A stretch of 64,000 bases of DNA from positions 1,984,001-2,048,000 of the forward strand of contig CP021424.1 in assembly GCA_002162095.1 (NCBI GenBank), written 5' to 3'. Within the stretch, counting starts at the first letter, position 1. Each line of letters begins with the position of its first letter. Of this stretch, positions 26,541-43,166 are shown piece after piece. Source of the DNA: Armatimonadetes bacterium Uphvl-Ar2 (GTDB taxonomy: Bacteria > Armatimonadota > Fimbriimonadia > Fimbriimonadales > Fimbriimonadaceae). The translations under genes were made by a program, and so were the position numbers. The notes beneath the pieces were generated by a model that saw nothing but the letters and a program-made list of their open reading frames with translations, ran no database searches and was not told where the DNA came from.

Positions 26541-26899
26541 GCCCGCGCGAAATCGTGGTGGTGGCGCTGGCCGGACTGGGCACGGTGTTTATCCTGCTCT
26601 CCGTGGTGGGCCTGCTGCGGATGCCGGACCTCTACATGCGGATGCAGGCCACGACCAAGGCAACGACCCTGGGGCTGCTGCTGGTGATGGCGGCGCTGAG
26701 CGTGCACTTTGCCCAGCCCGGCGAGACCGTGAAGGCGGTGCTGGTGATCCTGTTCTTGTTCCTGACCCAGCCCATCGCGGCGCACATGATTGCGCGGGCG
26801 GGCTACCGTACGGATGTGCCGCTGTGGGAGGGCTCCGTGACGGATGAACTGGCGGCGGCGGAGTCAGCGAGTAGAATAGAAGATCCTTCGGGCCTGTAG
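26537..26899 (+). CDS. mnhG: Mrp/Mnh antiporter subunit G
   Basis: A 120-residue subunit with three helices and the MrpG signature GLLRMPDLYMRMQATTKATTLG. Strong AAGGAGGAG precedes the ATG. The C-terminal coding sequence runs into the following tRNA gene: the TAG stop at 26897-26899 lies at tRNA positions 8-10, so the last ten bases are shared. Confidence 0.94.
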   Translation: MSPREIVVVALAGLGTVFILLSVVGLLRMPDLYMRMQATTKATTLGLLLVMAALSVHFAQPGETVKAVLVILFLFLTQPIAAHMIARAGYRTDVPLWEGSVTDELAAAESASRIEDPSGL

Positions 26900-26962
26900 C
26901 TCAGTGGTGAGAGCGGGCGGCTCATAACCGCTTGGTCGTGGGTTCGATTCCCCCCAGGCCCA
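26890..26962 (+). tRNA. tRNA with CAT anticodon (Ile2 or elongator Met)
   Basis: A complete cloverleaf of 73 nt: acceptor GGGCCTG/CAGGCCC with discriminator A, D arm TAGCTCAGTGGTGAGAGC, anticodon stem GGCGG/CCGCT with loop CTCATAA, and T arm GTGGG-TTCGATT-CCCCC with one imperfect pair. CCA is not encoded (CCC follows). The G1-C72 pair rules against initiator tRNA. The anticodon arm and following CTTGGTCG resemble tRNA-Ile2, whose CAT is converted to a lysidine anticodon by TilS, more than elongator tRNA-Met. It shares its first ten bases with the end of mnhG. Confidence 0.92.
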
Positions 26963-26994
26963 CCCGGATCAATTAGTTCACCTTGATTGGTCTA

Positions 26995-28203
26995 TCAACC
27001 TCGTGACGTTTTGGGACGCTGGGCGCCCATGAGGGCTCCGTTGGGAGAAATGCCTCGCCCTTCACCAAACTGAACAGGGACAATTCCCGTACCAGCAATG
27101 TTATAGACAAGCCTCATATCTATCTGGACTGGCTCCCGCATGCTAACGGTATATCCTCCCTCCTCAGTTTTCAAGTGAGCAAAGGCATCCGGAAGAAGCT
27201 GGAGTATCGTACCAAATGGAAGAGAGTGGCCTTCCTTTGCTGCACTGTAAATCTCCTCTGGAACACCAAACTCGTTACCGGCCTTGTCGAGAAGGTCTTC
27301 GTATGCATCGCTTAACGCAGAAAGATCGTCGCCACGACGGTAAGTTCCGCGCGGGGCGTCTGCGATAATGAGTATTGCCTCGGCCAAGTCATCAGCGTCC
27401 CACTTGCCTTTCAAGAAAATGGGTGCATCCCAAATCTTCGGATCAACCTTGAAGAATAGTCCACATTCTTGGTTGAGGCGCATGATGGCATTGTAGATCG
27501 TTGTGAGCTTCCCATCTTCCCAGTCAATCACCTGGTGAGTTGGATTGAGCGGCTCGACGTTTGGAACGGGTTTCAACGTAAGTGGCTGCGCTGCCCTTGG
27601 AGTGATGGGCTTTTCGAACATCTTTGAACCTTGACCTTGGCTCGTAGTTAGTTTCATCGTGACCTCCAAAACAACTCGGGCCCGGAAATTTTCTGGGCTG
27701 TTTGCGATTGCGCCCATTCCTTGCGGATGGGCGCGCATGGCAATCCGATTCACGTAAGTTCCATCGGCATCGAATTCACCTAAACTCATGCCACCATTAA
27801 GAAGCTTGGCCAAGTGGTCAGGGTTTGCGCCGAGTAGCCATGTATGGAAAACTCTTGCCGAAGATGCGCTTGCAATAAGAGAGGTTGGATTGACTCGGTA
27901 GCAAACAAGGCCCGTGCCTTGGGCCTTGATGTCTCGAGAAAACGTAATCGCAAACTCTCCAAGCCAGGACTTTGGCAATGGTAACAGCTCGGTCGACGGG
28001 TCAATCGTTAGAGACAAATTCGCAACATCAACGAGGATCGGTTCATCAATGTCTTTGAAAAACCTTGTTTGCCGCTCTTCGCTCTCAATACGCAAGGGCG
28101 AGGCTTTCAATCCACTTGATTGACTTTGTGCAAGCCCGGTTAAACTCGCACAAAGTAACAGCAGACTGAAGGCATGTCGAAATTGCTGTCTACTCCCCGG
28201 CAC
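26995..28203 (-). CDS. Unknown secreted protein, paralogue A of a three-member family
   Basis: A 402-residue protein of unknown function. The start is GTG 28203, giving a signal peptide ending near LTGLAQSQ; GGGGA lies upstream and the start overlaps the end of the preceding gene by 14 bases. It is clearly related to the proteins at 40617 and 41892. Shared landmarks are a D/E-x-P-I/L-L-V/L-D near residue 60, an N-terminal mixed module, a Pro-rich linker, and a C-terminal module with DGKLTTIYNAIMRLNQECG and PIFLKGKWDADDLAEAI. That last module recalls the layout of secretin/TonB short N-terminal (STN) domains, a weak inference. The region is AT-richer than its neighbours and lies next to a tRNA gene. 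Confidence 0.8.
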   Translation of the reverse strand: MPGSRQQFRHAFSLLLLCASLTGLAQSQSSGLKASPLRIESEERQTRFFKDIDEPILVDVANLSLTIDPSTELLPLPKSWLGEFAITFSRDIKAQGTGLVCYRVNPTSLIASASSARVFHTWLLGANPDHLAKLLNGGMSLGEFDADGTYVNRIAMRAHPQGMGAIANSPENFRARVVLEVTMKLTTSQGQGSKMFEKPITPRAAQPLTLKPVPNVEPLNPTHQVIDWEDGKLTTIYNAIMRLNQECGLFFKVDPKIWDAPIFLKGKWDADDLAEAILIIADAPRGTYRRGDDLSALSDAYEDLLDKAGNEFGVPEEIYSAAKEGHSLPFGTILQLLPDAFAHLKTEEGGYTVSMREPVQIDMRLVYNIAGTGIVPVQFGEGRGISPNGALMGAQRPKTSRG

Positions 28204-28645
28204 CTGTTTCCCCGAGGCATTGCTCTGCGATGGTCTGAACCCAATAGTTGTTAAAAGGAATATCGAACCACGGCACAAGATTCGGATCCTGCGGATCATA
28301 CGGAGGGTAGTGCGGTCCAGGGTAGGACATATTCAGTGTCCAGACCTTCTTAGTCAAGTGAGTGCTCGGCGGAACCGAGCTGCTAAAGACCCAATTCACG
28401 GTTGGGTAATAGTATGCCCAAGGGTTAGGGTGATGGGTGAAGTACCTCCATCCAGAGGGGCGGGTTCCAGATAGGTACCAGTCACTTTGGGTACCATGCT
28501 CACAATGCTGCCAAGCGCCTTCGCCCAGCTTCTTGAAGAATGGTTCGCCATGGGGCGGTTCGTTCGTGGCATAAATGGGAGTCTGTGAGACTGCCATGCA
28601 AGAGAGTAAGGCCATGGCGACGAAGGAGGTCGATTTCAACCTCAT
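28190..28645 (-). CDS. Small secreted protein of unknown function
   Basis: A 151-residue product with a signal peptide (MRLKSTSFVAMALLSCMAVSQ). The mature part is rich in Pro, Tyr, Trp and His, with stretches such as YPGPHYPPYDPQDPN; no family is recognised. It is the first gene of a two-gene unit with paralogue A, whose start overlaps its 3' end. Expression seems to come from the promoter at 28652-28679, whose spacer is a GA repeat. Base composition is AT-richer than in the flanking genes. The two paralogues further on have no equivalent partner. Confidence 0.72.
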   Translation of the reverse strand: MRLKSTSFVAMALLSCMAVSQTPIYATNEPPHGEPFFKKLGEGAWQHCEHGTQSDWYLSGTRPSGWRYFTHHPNPWAYYYPTVNWVFSSSVPPSTHLTKKVWTLNMSYPGPHYPPYDPQDPNLVPWFDIPFNNYWVQTIAEQCLGETGAGE

Positions 28646-28651
28646 GCCAGT

Positions 28652-28679
28652 ATTATCTCTCTCTCGCTCTCTCTGTCAA
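28652..28679 (-). promoter_or_regulatory. Promoter with GA-repeat spacer and leaderless geometry
   Basis: Read on the minus strand: a perfect -35 TTGACA (28679-28674), a 16-bp spacer GAGAGAGCGAGAGAGA, and -10 GATAAT (28657-28652), followed after six bases by ATG 28645. The whole spacer is a dinucleotide repeat with one interruption. Gain or loss of a repeat unit would change spacing by 2 bp and so promoter strength. Confidence 0.7.
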
Positions 28680-28698
28680 GGTTTGGGTGAAGAAAAAG

Positions 28699-28722
28699 AA
28701 AAAACCCCCTGAAAAGGGGGTG
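28699..28722 (-). terminator. Intrinsic terminator of the ECF sigma factor gene
   Basis: CCCCCT-TTTC-AGGGGG hairpin followed by six T on the minus strand, about 30 bases after the sigma-factor stop at 28750 and upstream of the next promoter. Confidence 0.85.
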
Positions 28723-28749
28723 GAAATGTCGTTCGACTCGAGCCTGGCG

Positions 28750-29388
28750 TTACCGCGCAGCCTTCGCTGCCGGCAGGCCGCCCAGGGAGGGTGTGGACAC
28801 CCGCAGACCCGCGAGCAACGCCCGCAGCTGCTTGTGCGCGCGGTGCAGGCGGCTGCGCACCGTCCCCACCGGCGCATGAATCCGGTCGGCAATCTCCTTA
28901 TAGGGCAAGCCTTCCACGTCCGCCATCCAGATCAGCTCGCGCTGCTCCGGCGAAAGTTGCTTCAACGAAACCACCATCTCTTCGCTCAGTTCCTGGCTCA
29001 GCAGGGCCTGCACGGGGGTCATGGCATCGCTCGCGGCTTCAAAGTGCACGCTGTCGTCCGAACCATCGGGCGTCAGGGGCGCATCGTAGCTCACCGTCTT
29101 CACCCGGCGCTCGCGGTTGCGGCGCAGGTCGAGGTAAAGCCGCGTGACTATCCGGAAAATCCAGTTCTCAAACGGTCGGTCCCCTTCGTAGCTGCGGTAC
29201 GCCTTCAGCGCTCGCACAAAGGCTTCCTGGGTCAGGTCCTCCGCGTCCGAGCGGCTCCGGCTGAGCCGATAGGCCAGATCGAACACCTTGCGGTAAGTCC
29301 GGTTCATCTGGCGCTCGAATTCGGCTCGCTCGGCGCGGCTGAGTTCATGGTTCAGGTTCGTCGTATTGATCGTGGTCACCGTTTCCAT
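28750..29388 (-). CDS. ECF-type RNA polymerase sigma factor
   Basis: A 212-residue sigma-70 family protein. Region 2 includes VFDLAYRLSRSRSDAEDLTQEAFVRALKAYRSYEGDRPFENWIFRIV (core binding and -10 recognition). Region 4 has LSPEQRELIWMADVEGLPYKEIADRIHAPVGTVRSRLHRAHKQLRALL, a helix-turn-helix for the -35. The acidic linker of about 45 residues is longer than usual. ATG 29388 is directly adjacent to AAGGAG, too close for good initiation; GTG 29379 three codons later has ideal spacing and may be the true start. No anti-sigma gene is adjacent, so its control is not evident. Confidence 0.93.
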   Translation of the reverse strand: METVTTINTTNLNHELSRAERAEFERQMNRTYRKVFDLAYRLSRSRSDAEDLTQEAFVRALKAYRSYEGDRPFENWIFRIVTRLYLDLRRNRERRVKTVSYDAPLTPDGSDDSVHFEAASDAMTPVQALLSQELSEEMVVSLKQLSPEQRELIWMADVEGLPYKEIADRIHAPVGTVRSRLHRAHKQLRALLAGLRVSTPSLGGLPAAKAAR

Positions 29389-40021: not shown

Positions 40022-40620
40022 GCATGGGGTTCCGGCGGCGCGAACCCGTAATGAACCCGACCGCGATGGTGGTGGGGCTGGGCAACCCCGGCCCGCAGTA
40101 CGCGCACACCCGCCACAACGTGGGCTTTGATTTAATCGAACTGCTGGCCGAGCGGCACAAGGTGCGCGTGCGGGAAAGCGGTTCGCGGGCGCTGTTCGGC
40201 ATCGGCATGGTGGCGGGGGAGCCCGTGGTGCTGGTGAAGCCGCTGACCTTTATGAACCGGAGCGGGGAAGCCGTGGGGCCGCTGGCCAAGCGGTGGGGCA
40301 TCGCGCCGGAGCGCATCATGGTGGTGGCCGATGACTTGGACTTGCCGCTGGCGGCGGTGCGGGTGCGGAGCAAGGGCGGCAGCGGGGGCCACAATGGCCA
40401 CAAGAGCCTGGTACAGGCGCTGGGGACGCAGGAATACCCGCGCATCCGGATTGGCATTGGGCGCGGGGAACAGGACACCGTGGAGCACGTGCTGGACAAG
40501 TTTCACCCCGATGAGCGGCGGGATGTGCAGCAGGCGCTGGCCCGCACGGCGGACGCGGTGGAGTGTTGGCTGCGCGACGGCATGGAAGCGGCGATGAACC
40601 GCTTCAATGGGTCGGGTTAG
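40018..40620 (+). CDS. pth: Peptidyl-tRNA hydrolase
   Basis: Releases tRNA from stalled peptidyl-tRNA. The 200-residue protein has VGLGNPGPQYAHTRHNVGFD (catalytic His in RHNVG), KPLTFMNRSGEAV, DDLDLPLAAVRVRSKGGSGGHNGHKSL and RIRIGIGRG. GTG 40018 overlaps the uppP stop and has GGGAGG five bases upstream; ATG 40024 and ATG 40051 are in-frame alternatives, the last giving the usual family start. The stop codon overlaps that of the convergent paralogue B gene. Confidence 0.95.
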   Translation: MSMGFRRREPVMNPTAMVVGLGNPGPQYAHTRHNVGFDLIELLAERHKVRVRESGSRALFGIGMVAGEPVVLVKPLTFMNRSGEAVGPLAKRWGIAPERIMVVADDLDLPLAAVRVRSKGGSGGHNGHKSLVQALGTQEYPRIRIGIGRGEQDTVEHVLDKFHPDERRDVQQALARTADAVECWLRDGMEAAMNRFNGSG

Positions 40621-41840
40621 TTGCCGGTTTTGGGGGCGGGCCGTGGCTTGGGGTAGCTCATGCTAAAGCCTCCGTTTGGATAGTCCGCTCCTTTCTCATA
40701 GCCACTGAGCCTCATCGTAAGATGGCGATCTAAGGTGATAACCGTATCCGGACTAGGCTTCTGCCCTTCCATGAAATCCCACATCTTGGCGGTCCCAGGA
40801 AAGTCTTGTTGGAGTTGCCCCCAGGTGAGGGTCTGCCCGGCTTCAGCCATATCCGCCAGCTTCTTAAACTCCTCGCTAGAATCTTGACCAAGCCTATCGA
40901 AGATATCCTCGAAGGCTTCGGAGTGCTTGTCCACTTCCGCCGCGTAATCCCCCACAAACATGGGCTCAACTTCATGGTACTTCTTCAGGGCTTCTGCTAG
41001 TGCATACGAATCCCACCGGCCCTTGACAAACACCTGTTCATCGCGAAGTCGGCGGTCGGGGATGATCCAGATGCCCGCTTCTTCAAACAGCCGAATCCCT
41101 ATGTCCTGTAAGGTCACCAACTTGCCCTCCTTGTAGTCAATCGTGACGCTCTTAGGCTGTCTCGGTGCTGAAACAAACGGAGGAACAGGTATTGGAGAAA
41201 GCGAAGCCTTCTCATCCAATTGTTTCATAACCGGATGTGAAGCAATTGACATTGGCACAAAGTTATTGGCGGGTGAGTTCAAAGTAAGCTGGACCGTACC
41301 AATCAGTTGAGTCTGATACTTAACATCTTCCTTGAGGAGCACGCCGAAGCCGCCCGACATGCTACCGGTCCAACTGGATAAGAGGGCTTGACCACGGGCA
41401 TCCAATCTTCCGGCGGGAACTCCTTGAGTGAGTGCTTCAATTTCTTCCTCGGACTTACCGGCCAACCAGGCATACATCCAGTGACTCTTGCTCGCCGTTC
41501 CAAACAGTGCACTAGACCGAGTTCGACATAGAACATAACCGCCTGGGATGGCTACAATCTTACGCCCCTCGGCGGTTGCCCACAGGCTCAAATAATCCAA
41601 AGGAATGGGAATGACGGGATCGATCCTTTCTACATCTCCATTCATTGAGTAATCTCCCGATGGCACACCAATCCAGAGTGCGTCGAGGAGAAGCGGGTGC
41701 TCGATCGCCGAGAAGAAAGCCTGCCACCTCTTTTCTTCCGACGGCAACTTACTTGCAGGATCATCCTGCGCCTTCACCCCGGAACTGAGGACCAACAGGC
41801 AACCAAGTGCAGCAAAAGCGGAGGCAATTCCCCGTCGCAT
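40617..41840 (-). CDS. Unknown secreted protein, paralogue B of a three-member family
   Basis: A 407-residue protein with signal peptide MRRGIASAFAALGCLLVLSSGVKAQ. It shares with its neighbour (paralogue C) the element F-x-x-I-E-x-P-x-L-L-D near residue 45, PLP/PIPLDYLSLWA, IPGGYVL, a Pro-rich linker, and the C-terminal GKLVTLQDIGIRLFEEAGI, QVFVKGRWDSYALAEAL, and EAGQTLTWGQLQQDFP. The more distant paralogue A keeps the same order. No catalytic residues stand out. ATG 41840 lies in a 20-bp element repeated upstream of paralogue C. Function unknown; the shared C-terminal module may be STN-like. Confidence 0.82.
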   Translation of the reverse strand: MRRGIASAFAALGCLLVLSSGVKAQDDPASKLPSEEKRWQAFFSAIEHPLLLDALWIGVPSGDYSMNGDVERIDPVIPIPLDYLSLWATAEGRKIVAIPGGYVLCRTRSSALFGTASKSHWMYAWLAGKSEEEIEALTQGVPAGRLDARGQALLSSWTGSMSGGFGVLLKEDVKYQTQLIGTVQLTLNSPANNFVPMSIASHPVMKQLDEKASLSPIPVPPFVSAPRQPKSVTIDYKEGKLVTLQDIGIRLFEEAGIWIIPDRRLRDEQVFVKGRWDSYALAEALKKYHEVEPMFVGDYAAEVDKHSEAFEDIFDRLGQDSSEEFKKLADMAEAGQTLTWGQLQQDFPGTAKMWDFMEGQKPSPDTVITLDRHLTMRLSGYEKGADYPNGGFSMSYPKPRPAPKTGN

Positions 41841-41891
41841 GGCCGAAGCATGGCACAAGTCGCCTCCCATCTACAAGTCCGCTCGGTCAGG

Positions 41892-43106
41892 CTAAGAACC
41901 GGGGCGCGGTGGAAGGGCAGGCTTATGCGAGTGCGAATAAAATGCGCCACCCATGTATCGATTGTCCTGGTCTCGCCCAAAGACCTTCATCCCAACACCC
42001 CGCTCTAGTCGAACTTGTGTTTGGGGACTTGGAGCACTGTCGCCAGTTAAGTCCCATTCCTCCGCAATCTTGGGGAAGTCGCGCTTCAACTGCTCCCAAG
42101 TCAGGCTTTGTCCAGATTCTGCTAGGGCGGCCAGTTTCCGAAAGTCATCCTCTCCTGAATTGGCCACCTTGTCAAAGGTGCTCTCGAAAACCGATGCAAA
42201 CATCGAGTACTGATCTTCAAACTCAACCGCGACCAGCGGCTCCGATTCATGGTAGCGCCGGATCGCTTCTATGAGTGCGTAGGAATCCCACGTCCCCTTA
42301 ATGAAGATGGGGTCATTTGTGTGGCGAGGATCGTAACGAAGCAAAATGCGAGCCTCGTCGTACATCTGGCGAGCGAGATGATAGATCGAAGTCAGTTGAC
42401 CTTTACCAAACTCCAAGGGAATGCTCTTGGGATTCAAAGGCGGCGGGGTGTAGGGAGGCAAGGGCGAGGGAGGGAAGTCATTCTTTACTTGTGTTTCTTG
42501 CGGCACGGCATGAGAAGAAACTTCTCTTCTTGAAGAATCTCCGTTCGGCAAAGTCACTTCCAGTGTGATGCTCGCCGCAAGCTGAGTGGTCATTCGGCCT
42601 TGAGGGTTCATCATTTCGGCGAAGCCGCCCGGAAAACTGCCTGATGCCCGGTTCATCACAGCACGGCCGCGGGAATCCAAACTATGAAGCGGTGCGCCGG
42701 CAGTCAGTAGCTCGGCTTGTGACTGATCGAGAGAGTTGATCCACTGAAGAATCCAAAACTGCGGCAGCGTAGATCCAAATTCGTTGCTGACAATCGTATG
42801 GTGGAAAACGTATCCACCGGGAAGCCCAATGACGCGCCGCCCTACTGATTGTGCCCACAAGCCAATGTGACTTGGGGGAAGTGGCAACGGATCATCGTTC
42901 CGTTCGGCAATCTGAGGGTTCGCTGTTATGGGAGGTGTAAGCCCCTTCGTATCCAACAGAATGGGTTGCTCGATGAGGGAGAAACCAACCTGCCATGCCT
43001 GCTCATCTTTCTTGAACTGCTCTAAGTCCTGTGGTCGACTGTAACCAGCGCAGGCAATAAGCCAACAACCAAGGCTGCAGATTATAGACGCCGGTACTCG
43101 AACCAT
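41892..43106 (-). CDS. Unknown secreted protein, paralogue C of a three-member family
   Basis: A 404-residue protein with a signal peptide (MVRVPASIICSLGCWLIACAG) and no clear lipobox consensus, although Cys lies near the cleavage region. Shared landmarks with B: FSLIEQPILLD, PLPPSHIGLWAQ, LPGGYVF, SGSFPGGFAEMM, a Pro-rich linker (PPSPLPPYTPPPLNP), GQLTSIYHLARQMYDEA, PIFIKGTWDSYALIEAI, and ESGQSLTWEQLKRDFPKIAEEW. B and C are a tandem duplication, 51 bp apart. AT-richer than flanking genes. Function unknown. Confidence 0.82.
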   Translation of the reverse strand: MVRVPASIICSLGCWLIACAGYSRPQDLEQFKKDEQAWQVGFSLIEQPILLDTKGLTPPITANPQIAERNDDPLPLPPSHIGLWAQSVGRRVIGLPGGYVFHHTIVSNEFGSTLPQFWILQWINSLDQSQAELLTAGAPLHSLDSRGRAVMNRASGSFPGGFAEMMNPQGRMTTQLAASITLEVTLPNGDSSRREVSSHAVPQETQVKNDFPPSPLPPYTPPPLNPKSIPLEFGKGQLTSIYHLARQMYDEARILLRYDPRHTNDPIFIKGTWDSYALIEAIRRYHESEPLVAVEFEDQYSMFASVFESTFDKVANSGEDDFRKLAALAESGQSLTWEQLKRDFPKIAEEWDLTGDSAPSPQTQVRLERGVGMKVFGRDQDNRYMGGAFYSHSHKPALPPRPGS

Positions 43107-43166
43107 GGCCAAAGCATGGCACACCCCGCCCCCGCACATCAAGAAGCCAGTCCTGACAGAACGTGC

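Follow-up and report, generated by a model that had tools for sequence, protein, structure and literature searches.

In Haemophilus influenzae, a (TA)9-11 repeat in the promoter region of the surface genes hifA/hifB has been proposed to set the distance between the -35 and -10 hexamers and thereby to act as a switch (van Ham 1993, as cited in PMC2651432). The account of hif in PMC2651432 also includes eroded alleles below the threshold, such as (TA)4ATTA in strain R2866. According to the same paper, dinucleotide repeats of 5 units in H. influenzae differed by substitution and not by length. A survey of Neisseria used a cut-off of at least 8 units for dinucleotides, and the tracts that passed it did not vary in length (PMC5953494). 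In the NgoAV system of Neisseria gonorrhoeae, the length of a poly-G tract inside hsdS decides whether a full-length or a truncated HsdS is made (PMC7394358). In Actinobacteria and Deinococcus-Thermus, leaderless genes are marked by a -10 box (TANNNT) placed 6-7 nt ahead of the start codon (PMC3160421). Phase variation through repeats has been described mainly in host-adapted bacteria; among the papers listed by a literature search, none reported it for Armatimonadota.

The window analysed here is a stretch of 64,000 nucleotides from Armatimonadetes bacterium Uphvl-Ar2 (contig CP021424.1, positions 1,984,001 to 2,048,000); positions below are those of the window unless the genome is named. On its minus strand, positions 28679-28652 read TTGACA-(GA)3GC(GA)4-GATAAT, followed by ACTGGC and an ATG at 28645. 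The -35 hexamer TTGACA (28674-28679) is a 6/6 match and the -10 hexamer GATAAT (28652-28657), 6 nt from the ATG, a 5/6 match. The 16-nt spacer between them (28658-28673) has the sequence GAGAGAGCGAGAGAGA, which is (GA)3GC(GA)4. Because the -10 box itself starts with GA, the pure runs in this tract are (GA)3 and (GA)5. The promoter is separated from the sigma-factor gene upstream by a hairpin that, with its T-rich tail, resembles a terminator (28704-28721, minus strand) and stops 24 nt upstream of the promoter.

By itself, the match to the promoter consensus is not beyond chance, as about one is expected per genome of such composition. A local scan found 1 match against 1.1 expected, and TTGACA-N14-19-NATAAT is present once in the 2.63-Mb genome against approximately 0.94 expected from base composition. 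A 464-kb sample of the same genome was used for the spacing between hexamers and ATG, for the scoring of leaderless promoters and for a survey of long repeats. TANNNT was counted 13 and 12 times at distances of 6-7 nt before ATG and 0-7 times at other distances, and TATAAT-like hexamers 8 times at a distance of 6 nt and 0-2 times elsewhere. The GATAAT of the window is located at exactly this enriched position, in the geometry of a leaderless promoter, and the window promoter has the joint best score among the leaderless promoters of the sample. In addition, (GA)5 or longer is found at 3 sites in the genome, 2 of which directly follow TTGACA (post-hoc binomial P ~4e-6). The hexamer peak at 6-7 nt, the upstream hairpin and the coincidence of GA repeat and TTGACA together indicate that the match in the window is more than a chance occurrence. 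They also bear out the promoter proposed in a preliminary description of this DNA, whose sequence, 16-bp spacer count and repeat formula were exact on re-reading the minus strand. Since the -10 box is only 6 nt from the ATG, the message of the first downstream gene (ORF1) is probably leaderless, with a predicted transcription start at or adjoining the A of the ATG. The promoter thus resembles the leaderless TANNNT promoters in the position of its -10 box; unlike those, it has a strong TTGACA -35 hexamer and a repeat as spacer.

Two genes follow on the minus strand. ORF1 (28190-28645, 151 aa) has a signal-peptide-like N-terminus, MRLKSTSFVAMALLSCMAVSQ, as judged by eye. It is an orphan: there was no homologue in 40 relatives and no close homologue in plasmids. 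ORF2 (26995-28203, 402 aa) probably starts at the GTG at 28203, overlapping the end of ORF1 (its frame is open from 28299), and its N-terminus looks, again by eye, like that of an exported protein. Nothing close to ORF2 was found in viral contigs; its homologues are distant paralogues only, two of which are inside the window. These two lie in tandem on the minus strand (40617-41870 and 41892-43166), show 26-27% identity as paralogues of ORF2, and are exported-like, with no family assigned.

The promoter, ORF1 and ORF2 form a block (26966-28745) whose G + C content is 51%, compared with 64-66% on either side. At its far edge lies a tRNA-Met (CAT) gene (26890-26964, plus strand), and upstream of the promoter a gene for an ECF-type sigma factor (28750-29388, minus strand) forms a conserved flank, with 97% protein identity in the sister species. 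The flanks in this sister (G001) are approximately 94% identical; the block is missing there, and 60 unrelated bp join the tRNA-Met to the sigma gene. The promoter and its operon are therefore accessory, and were either gained here or lost in the sister. No target-site repeats of at least 8 bp were present at the block edges, which argues against a clean insertion of the transposon type; the block may have arisen by sequence replacement, or the sister may have lost it. Two sequences considered as a strain pair (L075 and L098) were 100% identical and represent the same genome, so they provided no strain comparison.

The combination of TTGACA and a GA spacer is not confined to the window. At genome position 607748 of the same organism (tract 607748-607775), TTGACA-AA(GA)8-A-TATAGC-N4-ATG precedes an operon for exported proteins, which has pyrG on one side and, going by its sequence, a polyphosphate-kinase-like gene on the other, and which is missing in the sister. 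The proteins associated with this promoter and with the window promoter are not homologous. The accessory block after pyrG, absent from the sister, spans 607.7-610.2 kb of the genome (L117:3686-6178) and encodes two homologous exported proteins (34% identical) on either side of a third. The stretch surrounding the third (GA)5+ site of the genome, at 1073189, has no promoter features. A congener, Fimbriimonadaceae bacterium ACE_ARM5, has TTGACA-(GA)9-GACAAT-N9 directly in front of the ATG of an exported-protein gene (contig JAHBTC010000008, 469-494), which is followed by a prepilin-like start. Another family member (G042) carries two neighbouring operons, and in each a (GA)11.5 tract leads into CATACT or TAACCT, placed exactly 6 nt ahead of the ATG; 79 bp around the tract are common to both operons, which encode exported and prepilin-like proteins. 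Beyond both of these operons (G042:C20:29000-35000, L165) the upstream gene's 3' end occurs again as a copy of 139 bp, and the genes differ between the operons; the copy suggests a duplication, or an insertion at the end of the upstream gene. The -10 assignment is weaker in the 607-kb and ACE_ARM5 copies, and the pair in G042 is without TTGACA. The spacers of the three TTGACA-type GA promoters are about 16, 16 and 18 bp, which are all workable lengths; an OFF allele was not seen among them. Translational switching was also considered. It was rejected for the window, where the frame of the upstream ATG is closed by a TGA within TTGACA and no start lies in between. In the 607-kb and ACE_ARM5 copies an upstream TTG/GTG frame reads through the tract, so that translational switching may take place there.

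A GA tract was also found at one shared site inside hsdS in four genomes of Fimbriimonadaceae (G008, G045, G085 and G002; L171-L174), with n = 7, 9, 11 and 19 units. It is located at the junction of the two recognition halves of this type I restriction specificity gene, and its flank is strongly conserved. Nine units leave an open frame for an intact HsdS of 412 aa, between hsdM and hsdR, whereas the frame is broken with n = 7, 11 and 19 (n = 7 gives split frames of 217 and 190 aa). As in NgoAV, a tract inside hsdS is tied by its length to the reading frame; unlike in NgoAV, the repeat is a GA dinucleotide instead of poly-G, and the locus is one of relatives and not of the window. The variation between species suggests that the length would also switch within one population, which makes this tract a candidate for phase-variable restriction specificity in Armatimonadota. 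Taken together, the recurring GA promoter spacers and the differences in hsdS length and frame suggest that GA slippage serves this lineage as a switch.

We consider it rather probable that the window contains a locked, steadily active leaderless promoter of a GA-promoter class, and that the intact members of this class are the real switch candidates. According to this explanation, the sequence would act as a strong housekeeping-type promoter, with its -10 box against the start codon and a leaderless transcript, and would drive an operon of two genes for exported proteins that was gained recently. The spacer of the promoter would belong to a class of GA-repeat promoters of Fimbriimonadaceae, in whose intact members ((GA)8-11) the gain or loss of GA units is predicted to shift the distance between -35 and -10 in 2-bp steps, tuning or switching transcription. 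Since the GC unit breaks the repeat of the window into (GA)3 and (GA)5, the length of this spacer is most likely fixed at 16 bp. A wider proposal, which we put forward tentatively and hold to be somewhat doubtful, is that Fimbriimonadaceae possess a GA contingency system, consisting of the leaderless promoters of horizontally variable exported and prepilin cassettes together with type I hsdS, and that the window promoter is a locked former member.

It is unlikely, in our opinion, that the role of the GA tract is independent of slippage, be it that of a favourable spacer, of a regulator binding site or of a purine-rich leader RNA close to the start codon, with repeats that expand passively. Such a role would agree with the GA strand being the sense strand in all promoter tracts, and with the tracts ending 10-13 nt before the ATG. 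It would also agree with GA spacers in front of a perfect TATAAT in unrelated Clostridia: two Clostridiales/Clostridia MAGs (L095 and L108) contain TTGACA, a GA-rich spacer of 19 or 17 bp and TATAAT, apparently independently of Fimbriimonadaceae. However, the other strong leaderless promoters in the 464-kb sample have ordinary, non-repeat spacers, 3 of the 5 GA-promoter copies have a TA-type hexamer at 6 nt from the ATG, and frame switching is the best account of the GA repeat in hsdS. A GA-promoter rule general to bacteria was rejected: TTGACARAGAGAGMGAGAGA had 25 matches in GTDB genomes, and a -10 hexamer of at least 5/6 at 15-19 bp followed in 3 of these (12%), against 2% at control offsets. 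Outside Fimbriimonadaceae such matches are therefore mostly not promoters.

The preliminary description had proposed that the GA spacer is phase variable and controls secreted proteins without known function. The proteins were described correctly, as both have signal-peptide-like starts and neither matches a Pfam or NCBIfam family. The phase variation holds up for GA repeats as contingency tracts of the lineage, given the longer GA spacers before unrelated exported-protein genes and the hsdS lengths in four genomes, but not for the tract of the window itself. If the latter were an active switch, slippage would give spacers of 14, 16 and 18 bp, with the operon turned down or up. The position of the repeat between -35 and -10, its 2-bp unit, the exported products, the accessory locus and the apparent use of GA tracts as contingency repeats in relatives would all suit a switch of the hif type. 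Nevertheless, we regard this as quite improbable. A switch of this type calls for an uninterrupted tract of approximately 8 or more dinucleotide units, whereas that of the window is interrupted by GC and reaches (GA)5 at most, a length below the published cut-off of at least 8 units and equal to that of the 5-unit dinucleotides without length change (PMC5953494, PMC2651432). The genome furthermore encodes a MutS homologue, and long repeats are otherwise almost absent from the 464-kb survey. Sigma-70 promoters are close to their optimum with a spacer of either 16 or 18 bp, so only contraction would turn the window promoter off. The tract resembles instead an eroded, sub-threshold allele, such as the (TA)4ATTA described for hif in PMC2651432. 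It differs from hif in being GA and not TA, in its interruption, in its probably leaderless transcript and in serving one direction; it is known here from a single sequence, and its host belongs to the environmental Armatimonadota and is not a host pathogen.

A chance meeting of a short GA run with a sequence that only looks like a promoter is very improbable: although a consensus match is expected about once per genome, the TTGACA-GA combination returns at a second locus of the same genome and in the congener, and the leaderless geometry of the window promoter is exact.

If GA tracts do switch, environmental and mostly uncultured bacteria would hedge their bets in the same manner with surface proteins and with restriction specificity, plausibly as a defence against phages. 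The loci named here have predicted ON and OFF lengths, which can be checked directly in existing long-read metagenomes. Among 113 genomes of the order, 16 carried tracts of (GA)7+. Of these tracts, approximately 20 in all, 4 were in hsdS and about half at sites without explanation. Tracts of 7-18 units outside obvious genes were seen in G032 (L164, L180), G015 (L166), G034 (L167), G102 (L169) and G003 (L170); in G032, two GA tracts adjoin a TGGTATAAATACCAG or GGTATTTATACCAG motif.
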